DNA of 64,000 nucleotides from Nocardioides soli (GTDB taxonomy: Bacteria > Actinomycetota > Actinomycetes > Propionibacteriales > Nocardioidaceae). Positions 6,312 to 31,993 of the stretch are shown piece by piece. Where the stretch lies: the NCBI RefSeq assembly GCF_014191495.1, contig NZ_JACHWR010000001.1, positions 1,488,001 through 1,552,000 of the forward strand, written 5' to 3'. The position numbers and the translations under genes are program-made. The notes under the pieces are model-generated. The model worked only from the letters and a program-made list of their open reading frames with translations, did not search any database and had not been told where the DNA came from. Position 1 is the first letter of the stretch, and each line of letters opens with the position of its first letter.

Positions 6312-6328
<17 letters not shown>
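5081..6328 (+). CDS. xseA: Exodeoxyribonuclease VII large subunit
   Basis: A 415-residue XseA. The N-terminal OB fold (about residues 10-105) contains [14 protein letters not shown] and [20 protein letters not shown]; the nuclease core follows with [22 protein letters not shown] and the highly conserved [17 protein letters not shown] and [12 protein letters not shown]-type segments; the C-terminal part is helical. With XseB it degrades single-stranded DNA in both directions. The ATG at 5081 is taken as the start because the conserved [12 protein letters not shown] helix follows at once. The gene overlaps xseB by 17 bases, implying coupled translation. Confidence 0.96.
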
Positions 6329-6578
<250 letters not shown>

Positions 6579-6765: not shown

Positions 6766-6796
6766 CGAGCCGCTTCGTTCGCGCTGGCCCAGCCCG

Positions 6797-6847
6797 GCGG
6801 TGAGCCAGCAACCATTGCCGGCTCCGGAAAGGTTGCCTGCTCACCGC
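6797..6847. repeat. Single-copy palindromic element related to the 73-bp array at 29.8 kb
   Basis: A long hairpin between the end of xseB (rightward) and the DUF4245 gene (leftward). The left arm 6797-6813 and right arm 6831-6847 pair at 15 of 17 positions around a 17-base loop. The reverse complement of the right arm, GCGGTGAGCAGGCAACC, is identical to the left arm of the 73-bp repeat units at 29805-30297. Placed between convergent genes, it could act as a bidirectional terminator, although it has no T-tract. Confidence 0.75.
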
Positions 6848-6884
6848 TGACCGGCGCCGCCGACCGACCGAACGCCGACCAGGG

Positions 6885-7445
6885 CTACGGCTGCAACGGC
6901 TCCGTCGTCAGCGACTCGACGAACGCACGCAGCGCCTCGGGATCGCCCGAGCTGTAGACGAGCACGGTGTCGTCGCCGACCTCGGTGGTCCAGGCGTGGT
7001 CGGTGTCGGTGTCGTCCCAACCGGTCCAGGTGCCGACCGGGGTGGTGAGGGTGTCGCCGTTCTCACGGACGCCGTCGCCGACGTACGTGCCGAGCAGGGC
7101 GCGCTCGGACTCGTCCTCCTGGTGTACGCCGGCGGTGCGCTCGTCGTCGGTGGTGAACACCATGTCGACGGCCGGGCGGTTCCCGGAGTCGAACGACGCG
7201 TCCTTGACCGACCAGCCGTCGGGGAGCCGCGGCGGGTAGACCGGCTCGAGGCCGAGCTGCTGGATGCTGACGACCATCTCGCGGTAGTCGATGTCCGGCG
7301 GCTGGTACTCCGGGGTGTCACGGAAGGTCCCGCGGAAGGCGACGATGCCCAGGACGACCAGCACCAGCACGATCATCGACCCGATCAGGCCACCGAACGA
7401 CCGCTGGTAGCGACCGGGCTTCCCGGTCTGCGTCTCCTCGCTCAC
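6885..7445 (-). CDS. DUF4245 domain membrane-anchored protein
   Basis: A 186-residue protein with a cytoplasmic tail of about 18 residues, one transmembrane helix (about 19-40, IGSMIVLVLVVLGIVAFRG) and an extracytoplasmic domain containing YPPRLPDGWSVKDASFD and TPVGTWTGWDD, typical of DUF4245. The function is unknown; in actinobacteria the family usually sits between xseB and glpX, and that neighbourhood is kept here except for an inserted transport block. It is divergent from the permease gene at 7512. Confidence 0.85.
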   Translation of the reverse strand: MSEETQTGKPGRYQRSFGGLIGSMIVLVLVVLGIVAFRGTFRDTPEYQPPDIDYREMVVSIQQLGLEPVYPPRLPDGWSVKDASFDSGNRPAVDMVFTTDDERTAGVHQEDESERALLGTYVGDGVRENGDTLTTPVGTWTGWDDTDTDHAWTTEVGDDTVLVYSSGDPEALRAFVESLTTEPLQP

Positions 7446-16013: not shown

Positions 16014-16174
16014 GCTGGAACAACTCCTTCACCGGCAGGTACGTGCCGGACGATCCGTAGTAAAGGTGAGCGGGCTCACAGTAACCGGTTCTGGGGGCCG
16101 GAGGGCCGGGTGGGTTTACAACCGCGCCCCGGAGGGCTAGATGTGAACTAGGACACTCCGGAGGGGAGAGCCGT
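16014..16174. promoter_or_regulatory. Divergent regulatory region of the sugar ABC genes
   Basis: This 161-base gap separates the leftward ATPase gene from the rightward binding-protein gene. It contains two inverted repeats: CCGGCA (16032-16037) with TGCCGG (16044-16049), and GTGAGC-GG-GCTCAC (16066-16079). The second is the kind of short perfect palindrome used by LacI-type sugar regulators, but no regulator gene is adjacent and the assignment is inference. A purine-rich site, GGAGGGGAGAG, precedes the ATG at 16175. Confidence 0.45.
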
Positions 16175-28302: not shown

Positions 28303-29760
28303 ATGCCCGAGCCCACCGCTGACCTGACCACCCGATCCGGCGCGTCCGCCGGCGTGGTCTCTCACTGGCTGGCACAGGAGGAGAAGATCGACCCGTCGGT
28401 GCTGCGGCGGCGCCCGCGCCTGGACGGCGACCGCGAGGCGGACGTCTGCATCGTCGGCGCCGGCTACACCGGCCTGTGGACGGCGTACTCGCTGCTCCGC
28501 AAGGACCCCGGGCTCGACATCGTGGTGCTGGACGCCGAGTTCGCCGGGTACGGCGCCTCGGGCCGCAACGGCGGCGCGGTGATCGCCCAGCTCAACGGGT
28601 CGCGGGAGTACTGGGACTCGATCGGCGGCCCCGGCGCCGGCGTCCGGATGGAGCGCGCGGTCCAGGCGACCGTCGACGAGGTCGGCAAGACCATGGCGGC
28701 CGAGGACCTCGGCGCCTTCGTCAAGGGCGGCGTGGTGATCTCGGCGCGCAACCAGCTCGAGGCGAAGCGGCTCAGGGGTTCGGTCGAGGAGGACCGCGCC
28801 CACGGCTTCACCGAGGAGGACTGCGTCTGGCTCGAGGCCGGCGCCGCCGCCGAGCGGATCGGGGTGGCCAACCAGCTGGGCGCCCGGTTCAGCCCGCACT
28901 CGGCGACCATCAACCCCGGCCGGCTGGTCCGCCGCCTCGCCGACCGGGTCGAGGCTGCCGGAGCCCGGATCTACGAGGGCACCCCGGTCACCTCGATCAC
29001 CCCGCGCTCCGGAGGCCAGGCGGCCGCCGCACACACGCCGTACGGCACGGTGCGGGCGAAATGGGTCGTGCGCGCGACCGAGGCCTACACCGAGAGCATG
29101 AGCAGCCATCGCCGCCGGCTGATCCCGGTGCGCACCTCGATGATCGTCACCGAGCCGCTCGACGACGCGACGTGGGCCGAGCTGGGCTGGGAGCGCCACG
29201 AGACGCTGCTGGCGCTGCACCCCTTCCTGCACCTGCAGCACACCGAGGACCGCCGGATCACCATCGGCGGCGCCGACAACCGGCTGCCGTACCGCTACGG
29301 CTCCAAGCCCTCCCCCGACGGGAACGCCCTCCCGGTGGTCGAGGAGTACTTCCGCCAGCAGCTGGTCAAGCTCTTCCCGTCGCTGGCGGGTGCGCGCGTG
29401 GACCGCTCGTGGGCCGGGGTCTTCGGGGTCACCCGCAGGTGGGCACCGTGCGTCAACGTCGACCGCGCCGCCGGCACCGCGTGGGCCGGCGGGTATGTCG
29501 GCGAGGGCGTGGCCGCCTCCAACCTGGCCGGCCGGACGCTGACCGACCTGATCCTCGGGGAGGACACCGACCTGACCCGGCTGCCCTGGGTCGGCGAGCC
29601 GCCGCGGGGCTGGGAGCCCGAGCCGCTGCGCGCCGTCGGCGCCCTCGGCATCTGGGCGATCCGCGCCGTCGGCGACCAGGCCGAGGACCGCACCAACAAG
29701 CGCTCCCGCCTGGTGGCCTTCGCCAACAAGGTCTCCGGCTTCAGCGGCCACCTGGGCTGA
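28303..29760 (+). CDS. FAD-dependent amine/D-amino-acid oxidoreductase (DAO family)
   Basis: A 485-residue flavoprotein of the DAO superfamily, closest in layout to gamma-glutamylputrescine oxidase-type enzymes. The Rossmann FAD motif is VGAGYTGLWTAYSLL (from residue 51) and the next FAD contact GYGASGRNGG follows near residue 86. Near the C-terminus GGYVGEGVAASNLAGR binds the flavin again. It would oxidise an amine or amino acid to an imine with release of H2O2 or transfer to an acceptor. It begins 37 bases after the hydrolase, so it probably belongs to the same rightward operon. Confidence 0.82.
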   Translation: MPEPTADLTTRSGASAGVVSHWLAQEEKIDPSVLRRRPRLDGDREADVCIVGAGYTGLWTAYSLLRKDPGLDIVVLDAEFAGYGASGRNGGAVIAQLNGSREYWDSIGGPGAGVRMERAVQATVDEVGKTMAAEDLGAFVKGGVVISARNQLEAKRLRGSVEEDRAHGFTEEDCVWLEAGAAAERIGVANQLGARFSPHSATINPGRLVRRLADRVEAAGARIYEGTPVTSITPRSGGQAAAAHTPYGTVRAKWVVRATEAYTESMSSHRRRLIPVRTSMIVTEPLDDATWAELGWERHETLLALHPFLHLQHTEDRRITIGGADNRLPYRYGSKPSPDGNALPVVEEYFRQQLVKLFPSLAGARVDRSWAGVFGVTRRWAPCVNVDRAAGTAWAGGYVGEGVAASNLAGRTLTDLILGEDTDLTRLPWVGEPPRGWEPEPLRAVGALGIWAIRAVGDQAEDRTNKRSRLVAFANKVSGFSGHLG

Positions 29761-29804
29761 GCCGGGCGGCCTGCGGTTGGGCCTGGCGGGGCCGGGCCGC
29801 TGGG

Positions 29805-30297
29805 CGGCGGTGAGCTGGCAACCGAATCCTCGACGACTTCGGTTGCTGACCCACCGCCCCACGGTCAACCCACGCCCCGGCGGTGAGCAGGCAACCGAAT
29901 CCTCAGCGACTTCGGTTGCTGACCCACCGCCCCACGGTCAACCCACGCCCCGGCGGTGAGCAGGCAACCGAATCCTCGACGACTTCGGTTGCTGACCCAC
30001 CGCCCCACCGTCAACCCACGCCCCGGCGGTGAGCAGGCAACCCATTCCTCAGCGACTTCGGTTGCTCACCCACCGCCCCACCGTCAACCCACGCCCCGGC
30101 GGTGAGCAGGCAACCGCATCCTCAGCGACTTCGGTTGCTCACCCACCGCCCCACCGTCAACCCACGCCCCGGCGGTGAGCAGGCAACCCATTCCTCAGCG
30201 ACTTCGGTTGCTCACCCACCGCCCCACCGTCAACCCACGCCCCGGCGGTGAGCAGGCAACCGCATCCTCGACGACTTCGGTTGCTCACCCACCGCCG
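29805..30297. repeat. Tandem array of seven 73-bp palindromic repeats
   Basis: Units begin at 29805, 29878, 29951, 30024, 30097, 30170 and 30243, exactly 73 bases apart; the last is cut after about 54 bases. Each carries the arm GCGGTGAGCAGGCAACC (GCGGTGAGCTGGCAACC in unit 1) and an inner hairpin GCAACCGAA/TTCGGTTGC (perfect in units 1-3, mismatched in 4-7). Units 4 and 6 match each other, and 5 and 7 nearly so, pointing to a later 146-base duplication. The array fills the gap between the convergent oxidase and SDR genes; the flanks 29761-29804 and 30298-30326 hold nothing recognisable. Confidence 0.95.
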
Positions 30298-30326
30298 CAC
30301 CGCACCGGCGACGGGTGGACCGGCGC

Positions 30327-31112
30327 CTACTGCGGCGCGCGCACCTTCCGGCCGACCGTCACGCCGCCGTCGCTGTAGATGGTCTGGCCGACGACGAAGG
30401 ACGACCGGCGCGAGCAGAGCCAGACGACGACGTCGGCGATCTCCTGGGGGCGGGCGCCGCGGCCGAGCGGGATCGCGTCGAGCGCCGACGTCGCCCACAC
30501 CGGGTTCTTCGCCATCTCCTGCTCGATCATCGGCGTGCGGGTGAAGCCGGGGGCGACGGCGTTGATCCGGATGCCCTGCCCGGCGTGCTCCATCGCGGCG
30601 GCCTTGGTCAGGCCGGAGACGCCGTGCTTCGCCGCGCCGTACGCCGCGAGGGTGGCCTGGCCGGTCCGGGAGGAGACCGAGGCGGTGTTGACGATCACGC
30701 CGCTGCCCTGGGCGGACATGATCCGCAGCTCCTCGCGCAGGCAGAGGAAGACGCTGGTCAGGTTCGCGCCGATGATCAGGTTCCAGTTGTCCAGGTCGGT
30801 CTCGGTGATCCGAGTGGACCGCCCGGACGCGCCGGCATTGTTGTGCGCGATGTCGAGCCCGCCGAACCGGTCGACGGTGGCCGCCACCATCGCGGCCACG
30901 GCCCGCTCGTCGGTGACGTCGGCCTCGACGGAGTCGGCGAGGCCGCCGGCGGCCTCGATCAGCGCCACCGTCTCGGCCGCGCCGGCCGCGTTGAGGTCGG
31001 CGACCATCACCGAGGCGCCCTCGGCGGCCAGGGCGAGCGCGCTCGCCCGGCCGATCCCCGACGCGGCGCCGGTCACCAGCGCGACCCGGCCCGCGAACTC
31101 CTGCTCGGTCAC
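30327..31112 (-). CDS. Short-chain dehydrogenase/reductase (classical SDR)
   Basis: A 261-residue NAD(P)-dependent SDR. Cofactor motif TGAASGIG at residues 14-21, NNAG at 91-94, catalytic serine in TASVSS (about 145-147), Y158 and K162 of YGAAK. D39 after the second strand (VADLN) suggests NAD rather than NADP. It is the last gene of leftward operon II; GTG 31112 overlaps the stop of the upstream SDR by four bases. The alcohol or ketone substrate is unknown. Confidence 0.88.
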   Translation of the reverse strand: MTEQEFAGRVALVTGAASGIGRASALALAAEGASVMVADLNAAGAAETVALIEAAGGLADSVEADVTDERAVAAMVAATVDRFGGLDIAHNNAGASGRSTRITETDLDNWNLIIGANLTSVFLCLREELRIMSAQGSGVIVNTASVSSRTGQATLAAYGAAKHGVSGLTKAAAMEHAGQGIRINAVAPGFTRTPMIEQEMAKNPVWATSALDAIPLGRGARPQEIADVVVWLCSRRSSFVVGQTIYSDGGVTVGRKVRAPQ

Positions 31113-31993
31113 AGATCCGTCCCTTCGCCGGGCGGGGCGAGCCCCGCGTCGCGCCACCAGTCGGCGGCCTGCTCCTGCTCGCTGCGGCCCCGCGCCGCGG
31201 CGGTCGCGGCGAGGGCGTCGGCGCCCACCAGCCGGCGGATCGGGTGCACGTCGCGGTCCTCGATCGCGGCGACCACCGCGCGGGCCACGTCGGCCGGATC
31301 GGCGGCGGCTCCCCCGCCGGCGCGCATCGCCCGGTCGACGGCCGCGCCGAGGTCGGCGTACGCCGCCTCGACCTCGGCCCCGACCTGGCCGGGCGAGGTT
31401 GCTCGCGCGATCCGGTTGTCGCGGATGCGGGTGGCGTGGAAGCCGGGGTCGAGCTGGCGGACCCGGATCCCGAACGACGCGACCTCCAGCGCGAGGGCCT
31501 CGGAGAACGTGCCGAGCGCGTGCTTGCTGGCGGCGTACGCCCAGCGCAGCGGTCGGCCCGGCAGCCAGCCGTCGACCGACCCGATGTTGACGACGGTGCC
31601 GCCGCGGCGGGCGCGCATGCCCGGCAGCACCAGCCGGGTCATCGCCACCGCCGCCAGGAAGTTGGTGTCCATCACCAGCTCGAGCTCGGCGTCGGTGCTG
31701 GTCTCCACGGCGCCGAAGGAGCCGACGCCGGCGTTGTTGACCAGCACGTCGATCGCGAGCCCGTCGGCGGTCAGCGACCCGACCAGCGCGGCGGCCGCAG
31801 CCCGATCGCGTACGTCGAGCCGGGCCATCGAGATCAGCCCACCCGACGCCGCACTCGCGGCAGCCAGCTCCGTCGTACGCGAGCCCTCACGCACCGTCGC
31901 GACCACGCGCCGCCCGGTGCCGGCGAGCCCCACCGCGGTCGCCAGGCCGAGCCCGCTGCTGGCCCCGGTGACCATCGCGACAGGCGAGACCAT
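31109..31993 (-). CDS. Short-chain dehydrogenase/reductase (second SDR)
   Basis: A 294-residue SDR with TGASSGLG at residues 9-16, NNAG near 86-89, and catalytic S139, Y153 and K157 (NIGSVDG; WAYAASKHALG). The arginine-rich second strand (ATVREGSR) suggests NADP(H) preference, unlike the SDR encoded just downstream. Its start shares one base with the aminotransferase stop (TGATG). It has a longer C-terminal part than classical SDRs, similar to oxidoreductases acting on bulky substrates. Confidence 0.85.
   Translation of the reverse strand: MVSPVAMVTGASSGLGLATAVGLAGTGRRVVATVREGSRTTELAAASAASGGLISMARLDVRDRAAAAALVGSLTADGLAIDVLVNNAGVGSFGAVETSTDAELELVMDTNFLAAVAMTRLVLPGMRARRGGTVVNIGSVDGWLPGRPLRWAYAASKHALGTFSEALALEVASFGIRVRQLDPGFHATRIRDNRIARATSPGQVGAEVEAAYADLGAAVDRAMRAGGGAAADPADVARAVVAAIEDRDVHPIRRLVGADALAATAAARGRSEQEQAADWWRDAGLAPPGEGTDL

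Follow-up and report, generated by a model that had tools for sequence, protein, structure and literature searches.

The seven-unit palindromic array in the window (the whole stretch of Nocardioides soli DNA analyzed here, 64,000 nucleotides) belongs to a dispersed family of palindromes that is very probably paired with an AbiEi-Vsr protein, of which the palindromes are putative binding sites. The pairing is drawn from the palindromes that flank the gene, the match between dispersed arms and the gene's flanks in the same genome, the co-occurrence of gene and arrays, the fold of the protein, the spacing of the units, the junctions at which the gene block is found, and distant AbiEi-Vsr genes. 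It is the solid, well supported part of the results, while mobility, cutting, and host benefit are only putative. To the reading that we consider the best explanation, in which gene and sites are spread by the nuclease in a manner resembling REP elements and RAYT genes, we assign a probability of about one half.

The window array and its dispersed family

The array spans positions 29805–30302 and is resolved by TRF into 6.8 copies of a 73-bp period with 94% matches and no indels. Its seven units (29805–29859, 29878–29932, 29951–30005, 30024–30078, 30097–30151, 30170–30224, and 30243–30297) follow the exact 73-base ladder reported in the first-pass annotation. Each is a 55-bp imperfect palindrome made of a 19-nt arm, a 17-nt loop, and the inverted arm, with an 18-bp spacer between units. 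The hairpin claimed for each unit is borne out, the inverted repeat being visible in all seven and a hairpin being obtained in seven of the seven folds made (plus strand: three array units and the solitary palindrome described below; minus strand: two array units and that same palindrome), with z values of −3.9 to −6.3 relative to shuffles. The 55-nt palindromes of units 4 and 6 are identical, and units 6–7 repeat units 4–5, the two dimers differing at 3 of 128 positions; the suspected 146-base higher-order repeat is thus real. The array may have grown by unequal exchange or replication slippage in steps of 73 and 146 bp.

A solitary palindrome of the same family is located at 6795–6849. Its minus-strand arm is exactly that of the array, as had been noticed earlier, the 17-mer GCGGTGAGCAGGCAACC recurring on the minus strand at 6831–6847. 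Over the whole window, 18 arm-like matches with at most two mismatches were counted against 3.4 expected, and none of 100 shuffles gave as many.

Both sites had been placed between convergent genes, and the genes on either side agree with this. The array is preceded by an FAD-dependent oxidoreductase gene on the plus strand (28303–29760, PF01266, 1.7e-55), and a short-chain dehydrogenase gene on the minus strand (about 30327–31157, PF13561, 2e-64) converges on it. The solitary palindrome has on its right a converging minus-strand gene of 186 aa (6885–7445), presumably DUF4245, and on its left a plus-strand frame, called at 6312–6578 and open as far as 6765. The gene finder behind this call, and behind the comparisons of genes near arrays, of shared junctions, and of placement, is a codon-score script rather than a standard program. 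This convergent setting is no general rule, since placement differences are at best borderline. The 38 clusters scored in this genome (G000) comprise 25 between co-directional genes, 10 in convergent gaps, 2 in divergent gaps, and 1 inside a gene, so that 37 are intergenic, at median distances of 34 bp from the gene on the left and 27 bp from that on the right; the neighboring gene pairs in the G000 stretches read are 263 co-directional, 50 convergent, and 37 divergent. A preference for convergent gaps was considered and discarded (10/37 clusters vs 50/350 pairs, p = 0.054, and vs 26/138 wide gaps, p = 0.36), as was an avoidance of promoters, i.e., of divergent gaps (2/37 vs 37/350 pairs, p = 0.56, and vs 31/138 gaps of at least 60 bp, p = 0.018).

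The suggestion that the array is a strong terminator does not fare well at the level of sequence: no terminator-like site (a GC hairpin followed by a T run) was found in 29600–30500, where 0.4 would be expected by chance, and most G000 clusters lie between co-directional genes (25/38). Rfam gives no match at gathering score over the array, the only two matches being far below the cut-off (E values of 0.14 and 0.71), and a known RNA family was therefore dropped. Elsewhere in the window, at 16018–16074 on the minus strand, the msiK RNA (RF01747) is matched with 58.1 bits, above its gathering score.

One unit used as a BLAST query gives 80 matches in the 5.81-Mb genome, and a palindrome pattern with a free loop of 9–27 nt gives 82 in G000 and none when reversed, so that the further copies of the arm on which the first-pass annotation had made its proposal depend do exist. 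The same pattern occurs in 6 of 39 genomes including G000, all of one genus, and in 0 of 14 genomes of other genera. Among the matches listed in the pattern scan, most are in Nocardioides and Aeromicrobium, some in actinomycete, Nocardioidaceae, and Propionibacteriales assemblies, and single ones in Streptomyces and Gemmataceae. A two-unit pattern at 73 bp is present in 29 of the 196 genus genomes, G000 among them, and its reversed version in none. An origin from plasmids was rejected, as the array has no match among 72,556 plasmid records, and an origin from phages likewise, as the AbiEi-Vsr protein has none among 50,697 phage records.

Each unit consists of two inverted arms, GCGGTG-N5-GCAACC in G000, around a loop of fixed length whose sequence is random between the loci of this genome. 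Of 294 distinct units, 271 measure 51 bp from GCGGTG to CACCGC. The outer box is nearly constant, and the inner hexamer varies by genome, being GCAACC in G000 and TCCACC, GCCACC, TCAACC, GGCTCG, GGACCG, or others elsewhere. The inner hexamer changes jointly in both arms: in the 127 non-redundant units, the pair 14/38 is A-T 104 times and C-G 20 times, totals that are biased by the choice of units for pairing, which leaves the variety of pairs unaffected. Two half-sites are favored over a strict hairpin, because positions 7–11 pair poorly and heterotypic palindromes, with one arm of each type, exist. Unit detection relied on the GCGGTG/CACCGC boxes, with one mismatch tolerated either in total or in each box, and on pairing at no fewer than 11–14 of the 18 arm positions; these limits varied between scripts, and the procedure inflates pairing scores and not spacing. 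Units of the GCAACC and TCCACC types are interleaved in single G000 arrays (L047:3468–4029, L039:3402–3952, and L038:3600–3797).

Neighboring units are mostly about whole DNA turns apart. The 136 center-to-center distances, taken from loci not chosen by the two-unit pattern and with one value per distinct distance per array, fall at 62–63 bp (7), 70–74 bp (83), and 80–85 bp (38), the ranges 64–69 and 75–79 being empty. The other eight are 88, 103, 105, 106, 109, 115, 115, and 123 bp; those of 88 and 109 bp are out of phase by half a turn, a point against the best explanation. The best-fitting period is 10.4 bp. With one vote per source, the three classes hold 6, 53, and 30 values, both gaps 0, and the distance of 88 bp one, although the significance is inflated by shared ancestry, related species inheriting their spacings. 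Without DNA phasing, the gaps would be difficult to account for. Of the earlier idea of a nucleoid-protein site, the protein site is upheld by this helical spacing and by the cognate gene described below, and the nucleoid protein gives way to the AbiEi-Vsr protein as the likely partner.

Between 31 G000 loci the boxes are 98–99% alike and the loops have an identity of 0.37, as against 0.37 by chance, whereas the loops of adjacent units within one locus are 80% alike; only units with the left arm GCAACC were taken, which forces the left-arm identity. Since the loops are alike within loci and at chance between them, the arrays grow locally and recently, the spread between loci is old or invisible, and the arms are kept in place. 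Recent transposition between loci was rejected on the same chance-level identity. Seven locus pairs match at 12 of 15 loop positions, where shuffles usually top at 9–11, a weak excess that does not suffice for such transposition and is overstated in that the observed value is the best of several units per locus and the shuffled one comes from one unit. A search for target duplication in the flanks of 30 arrays found none that is general, a further point against the best explanation, with three of them (L041, L061, and L056) reaching the 99th percentile of the control. At these three G000 loci, a copy of a start-codon-like stretch from the downstream gene is found left of the array; since the duplicated stretch holds this region of the next gene, target-site duplication was rejected and local tandem duplication is likelier.

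The AbiEi-Vsr gene and its palindromes

An all-against-all comparison of the genes near arrays yields one family that adjoins arrays in several species. The copy of G000 lies outside the window (locus L063, G000:C8:15303–16265) and has CoA-transferase and ABC transporter genes as neighbors, with one unit upstream and three downstream, the first of the latter overlapping the stop codon. No AbiEii-like (DUF1814) toxin gene was found beside this copy, the one locus at which it was sought.

As a single sequence, the protein gives nothing credible in Pfam, NCBIfam, or PDB. From an alignment of 49 homologues (7 of 56 loci being omitted as short, long, or broken), the matches to AbiEi are weak (at best 1.8e-5 for AbiEi_4, in 3/49 members, and 1.1e-7 for the PADLOC AbiEi profile), as are those to DUF559 in 6/49 and to MTES_1575 in 3/49 members. 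The model predicted from this alignment has a mean pLDDT of 92.9. Residues 1–177 of the model match AbiEi (6y8q; Z 9.2, rmsd 5.6, 170 aligned), and residues 182–285 match both I-Bth0305I (3r3p; Z 10.2, rmsd 2.6, 97 aligned) and Vsr (1cw0; Z 7.4, rmsd 2.3, 99 aligned). Judged by the predicted model, the protein is an AbiEi-like winged-helix DNA-binding region fused to a Vsr/I-Bth0305I-like predicted nuclease. The best Foldseek E value for the model is only 0.013, which counts against the best explanation. Residues E185, D217, E228, E230, H234, D244, and R247 are invariant in the alignment of the 49 homologues, the first five being candidate catalytic residues.

The family is present in 55 of the 196 genus genomes when matches of E 1e-40 or better are counted, and in single copy except in G043, G131, and G140, whose additional matches are partly fragments of a single broken gene; four more genus genomes have only distant relatives near 1e-21. 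The gene was read in 54 of these 55 genomes, the G150 copy being at a contig end. With a box-free detector, a palindrome stands beside the gene at 54 of 56 loci and on both sides at 36 of 56, with a mean of 2.64 per locus. The corresponding values for two sets of ordinary control genes are 6/26 and 8/30 with a palindrome, 0 and 1 with palindromes on both sides, and means of 0.23 and 0.37, the CoA-transferase control of this comparison omitting four loci that adjoin the gene. When box-based units are added, all 56 loci have a palindrome and 42 have them on both sides. At 33 of 56 loci the final 16 nt of the gene contain the start of an arm box (up to one mismatch), at register −12 in 12, −7 in 10, −11 in 5, −9 in 3, and elsewhere in 3. 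Here the repeated register outweighs the count itself, since 19 of 60 control gene ends also carry such a box.

The gene and the 73-bp arrays co-occur, 20 of 29 array genomes having the gene vs 35 of the 167 others (Fisher 7e-7, uncorrected for phylogeny). The dispersed arms, moreover, agree with the flanks of the gene in their own genome at 0.84 and with those of other genomes at 0.585, a difference reached in 0 of 10,000 permutations over 13 genomes, and for 10 of the 13 the own flanks rank third or better out of 50. For this comparison 17 genomes were chosen, four of which had no scorable units or flanks, and G000 was represented by five chosen loci (9 units). Counting against the best explanation, the arms do not match the gene's flanks in G043 and G178 and do so only partly in G060 (rank 11 of 50), and nine array genomes, among them G208 and G094, have no gene at E 1e-40. 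The genomes with the most 73-bp dimers are two of those without a close homologue, namely G208 (42) and G094 (38), G000 having 36. A search for a cognate gene in G208 gave none at E 0.001 genome-wide, nor did 16 of its array loci yield one at E 10. In G094 the candidate was rejected, as it is only a distant relative (6.5e-32) and the arm type of the array is absent beside it.

Distant AbiEi-Vsr genes behave similarly. In two partly overlapping searches of 14 and 11 genomes, 60 distant loci were collected, of which 53 were scored (L333 was left out for a stop and L297, L299, L301, L310, L311, and L312 as doubles or cut, and L323 and L342 are one gene present twice); at 36 of the 53, the two flanks share repeats above the 99th percentile of mismatched flank pairs. 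In a further set of 23 loci (21 from other genera and 2 from the same genus), 21 score above 14, vs 2/30 and 0/30 ordinary genes in a control that keeps the CoA-transferase loci adjoining the gene. For mismatched pairs within this set the 99th percentile is 26.8, and only 8 of the 23 exceed it; related genomes with a common repeat type have probably pushed it up. With a threshold of E 1e-10, the profile finds relatives (resembling DUF559 plus AbiEi) in 121 of the 296 class genomes and in 55 of the 114 genera, with at most seven candidates scored per genome. In a search that covered mostly papers outside subscription journals, no description of repeats tied to AbiEi/DUF559 genes was found.

Several individual loci deserve mention. 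A second AbiEi/DUF559 gene of G000 (L346, G000:C2:52597–55761) has on both flanks a different palindrome, GGACGTCATACG...CGTATGACGTCC. In family f23, the AbiEi-Vsr genes of L485, L486, and L491 are flanked by palindromes with the arm GTTGATCTTGGAGT that are common to the genomes of one family. At L342, L345, L341, and L335, direct repeats of about 20–24 nt upstream of the gene recur inverted downstream, like head-to-tail half-sites.

Proposed spread of the sites and alternative readings

In the reading that we consider the best explanation, the palindromes would be the DNA sites of the protein, with its AbiEi region and Vsr/I-Bth0305I-like nuclease, that is encoded once in the same genome. Because the palindromes share the plan of the AbiEi and Rv2827c operators, we infer by homology one AbiEi domain per arm and two per palindrome. 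The nuclease may cut or nick the DNA at bound sites, and repair of the breaks could then multiply and spread the sites and move the gene block. The gene with its sites would form an autonomous element, dispersed arrays such as that of the window would be its non-autonomous kin, and the system would work like a RAYT and its REPs with an unrelated enzyme. That the nuclease drives the spread is held tentatively, at slightly less than even odds; the saturated loops between loci, by which no recent copying from locus to locus is visible, count against it.

The gene block looks like an insertion. In G000, G010, G008, G116, G196, G052, and G080, the gene and its palindromes lie between the CoA-transferase and ABC ATPase genes. 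Thirty loci of the CoA-transferase junction were read, from a search of 38 hand-chosen genomes most of which are without the gene. The gene adjoins the CoA-transferase at four of them (G196, G052, G080, and G197), while at ten the ATPase is 35–183 bp away with no gene between (G132, G050, G018, G161, G009, G016, G013, G024, G094, and G004, the last with a palindrome in the gap). In G013 and G024 the gene is found elsewhere in the genome. At 13 loci no ATPase is in reach, and the remaining three (G046, G111, and G102, the last with a palindrome) hold 0.57–1.15 kb in which neither the gene nor a homologue was detected. These three gene-less genomes make the junction evidence mixed at its edges. 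At two of these junctions (L358 in G046 and L379 in G111), about 1 kb without a homologue of the gene stands where relatives have the gene block or almost nothing.

No counterpart of the solitary palindrome was found downstream of the 186-aa gene in 27 of the 29 other genus genomes read, out of 57 other genomes with this gene. G044 and G060 have palindromes there, that of G044 and one of those of G060 matching the type of their own gene, and other short repeats are seen downstream of the 186-aa gene at L389 (G052) and L411 (G013), suggesting that some gene ends collect repeats. In a comparison that covered the fetched G000 array stretches, 3 of 17 array clusters from five relatives have the same two flanking genes as G000 arrays, each with its own arm type; the L040 junction has an array in G178 too, and a junction is common to G010 and G046 also. 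Either the sites stay while their arms are replaced, or some junctions are hot spots. Coincident positions fit conserved function or insertion hot spots just as well, which counts against the best explanation.

We have also considered a less probable, yet substantial, alternative in which the sites form a network that is functional for the host, the AbiEi-Vsr protein binding the dispersed arrays as a roadblock, an insulator, or a chromosome organizer between genes. The sites would then be old and selected in place, protein and sites would drift together, the nuclease would guard or regulate, and any spread would be incidental. Such a network is a close rival of spread on account of the saturated loops, the shared positions, and the gene-less genomes with many arrays. 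Boxes and lengths are indeed kept, the 51-bp length in nearly all distinct units, while the loops are saturated; the same junction carries different arms in different species, at the 3 of 17 clusters and at the L040 junction in G178; and all but one of the 38 G000 clusters are intergenic. What counts against a network selected in place is the absence of 73-bp arrays from most species (167/196), a solitary site that has no counterpart in nearly all the relatives read, divergent gaps that are not clearly avoided, and a gene block that resembles an insertion, and a coherent replacement of arms at many sites would be hard to achieve by point selection alone. An element acting at the RNA level, with the hairpins as 3′ end structures of transcripts, mRNA stabilizers, or terminators and the gene association as a side effect, is improbable. 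The hairpins are strong, and for the 25 co-directional G000 clusters the sense strand has more G·U than A·C in 18, fewer in 4, and equal numbers in 3, the per-locus sums being 17.8 to 5.1 over 21 co-directional loci; the sense-strand loops, however, are themselves 58% G+T. In the 127 non-redundant units, the inner six pairs (12/40 to 17/35) contain 2 G·U, 6 A·C, and 30 other mismatches among 762 cells, so that the arm changes are almost all from Watson–Crick to Watson–Crick. The helical spacing has no RNA reason, the window array has no terminator-like site, and heterotypic palindromes break the pairing. RNA covariation as proof of an RNA role was likewise rejected, the weakly paired positions 7–11 giving 88 G·U to 66 A·C, a count in which the orientation is arbitrary.

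Assemblers easily collapse or expand tandem arrays, but an assembly artefact or a chance tandem repeat has a negligible chance here, as the same 73-bp lattice recurs in 29 of 196 genomes with 0 matches to the reversed pattern, and the lattice genomes include the single-contig G102, G111, G132, and G161. It is equally hard to credit a spread of classical REPs or BIMEs through a RAYT (Y1/HUH) transposase, which we regard as extremely unlikely. Dispersed extragenic palindromes in alternating orientation, dimers, species-specific sequence, and a single flanked gene would all fit. The Y1 transposase (PF01797), however, is absent from G000 and occurs in 1 of the 196 genus genomes (G165, which has no 73-bp array), whereas the same search found it in 5 of 14 control genomes, and the partner gene is not a Y1 transposase; true REP/RAYT membership was rejected for this reason, a very divergent HUH enzyme aside. 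The 196 genomes of this search are taken, from their handles, to be those scanned for the 73-bp arrays. Of the first-pass description as a locally expanded REP-type element, the dispersed extragenic palindrome and the local growth stand, and the REP/RAYT system proper does not. The REP comparison holds for the architecture and not for the enzyme.

A wider proposal, possible and rather more doubtful than not, is that AbiEi-Vsr proteins are a large actinomycete-wide class of genome colonizers, boxed in by their own half-site arrays, seeding the genome, and re-writing all of their sites together whenever the specificity shifts. If this is true, the RAYT/REP lifestyle would have been invented a second time and independently, with a homing-type nuclease in place of the HUH enzyme, and many intergenic repeats of high-GC genomes that have had no explanation would stem from such colonizers. 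For the pairing itself, an unexplained repeat family gains a likely protein partner, the plan of REPs with a dedicated gene is extended to a nuclease fold for which it was not found reported in the literature searched, and a common actinomycete gene group (DUF559/AbiEi-like) is touched by the finding. The site sequence being species-specific and the geometry fixed, the pairing is directly testable by binding assays, and the sites offer a natural series for protein–DNA coevolution at dozens of chromosomal positions.

Comparison with known systems

Vsr and I-Bth0305I go by the name of EDxHD nucleases. In the predicted model, residues 182–285 resemble them in fold and perhaps in the conserved acidic and histidine residues; unlike them, the nuclease predicted here forms one protein with an AbiEi-like region, and palindromes enclose its gene.

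PMC2817692 describes RAYT genes as always flanked by two REPs, as coevolving with the REPs, and as correlating with REP number, and PMC3733652 adds that REPs may also overlap the ends of RAYT genes. The present family resembles the system of the former source in the single gene flanked by its own palindromes, in gene–repeat coevolution (with exceptions here), and in the dispersed extragenic copies, dimers, arrays, and species-specific sequence. It differs in the enzyme, which is an AbiEi part with a Vsr-like nuclease and not a Y1 HUH transposase, in the units, which are long-arm pairs of 51–55 bp that start with GCGGTG, end with CACCGC, and have no GTAG or CGTC foot, and in loops that are random between loci and units locked to helical turns. 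The GTAG- and CGTC-tagged REPs in PMC3733652, which include CGTC elements without a known transposase, are likewise short palindromes occurring as monomers and dimers, but the Nocardioides units lack either foot. The main text of that paper contains none of the terms actinomyc, nocardi, and high GC.

According to PMC7319586, the operators of AbiEi are pairs of 23-bp inverted repeats separated by 3 bp; that of Rv2827c comprises two such pairs, each with 13 bp between its repeats, and 4 bp separate one pair from the other. Both kinds of operator are found upstream of a toxin–antitoxin operon, whereas the present sites lie on both sides of the gene and genome-wide, the G000 copy has no AbiEii-like neighbor, and the AbiEi part continues into a predicted nuclease domain. 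Common to both are the AbiEi-fold N-terminal region, predicted here, and the inverted 23-bp half-site pairs beside the gene. Computed from the geometry given in PMC7319586, the operators measure 49 and 59 bp per pair with a period of 63 bp, compared with 51–55 bp and 62, 73, and 83 bp here; the pair lengths are thus alike, and the 63-bp period coincides with one of the spacing classes of the present family.
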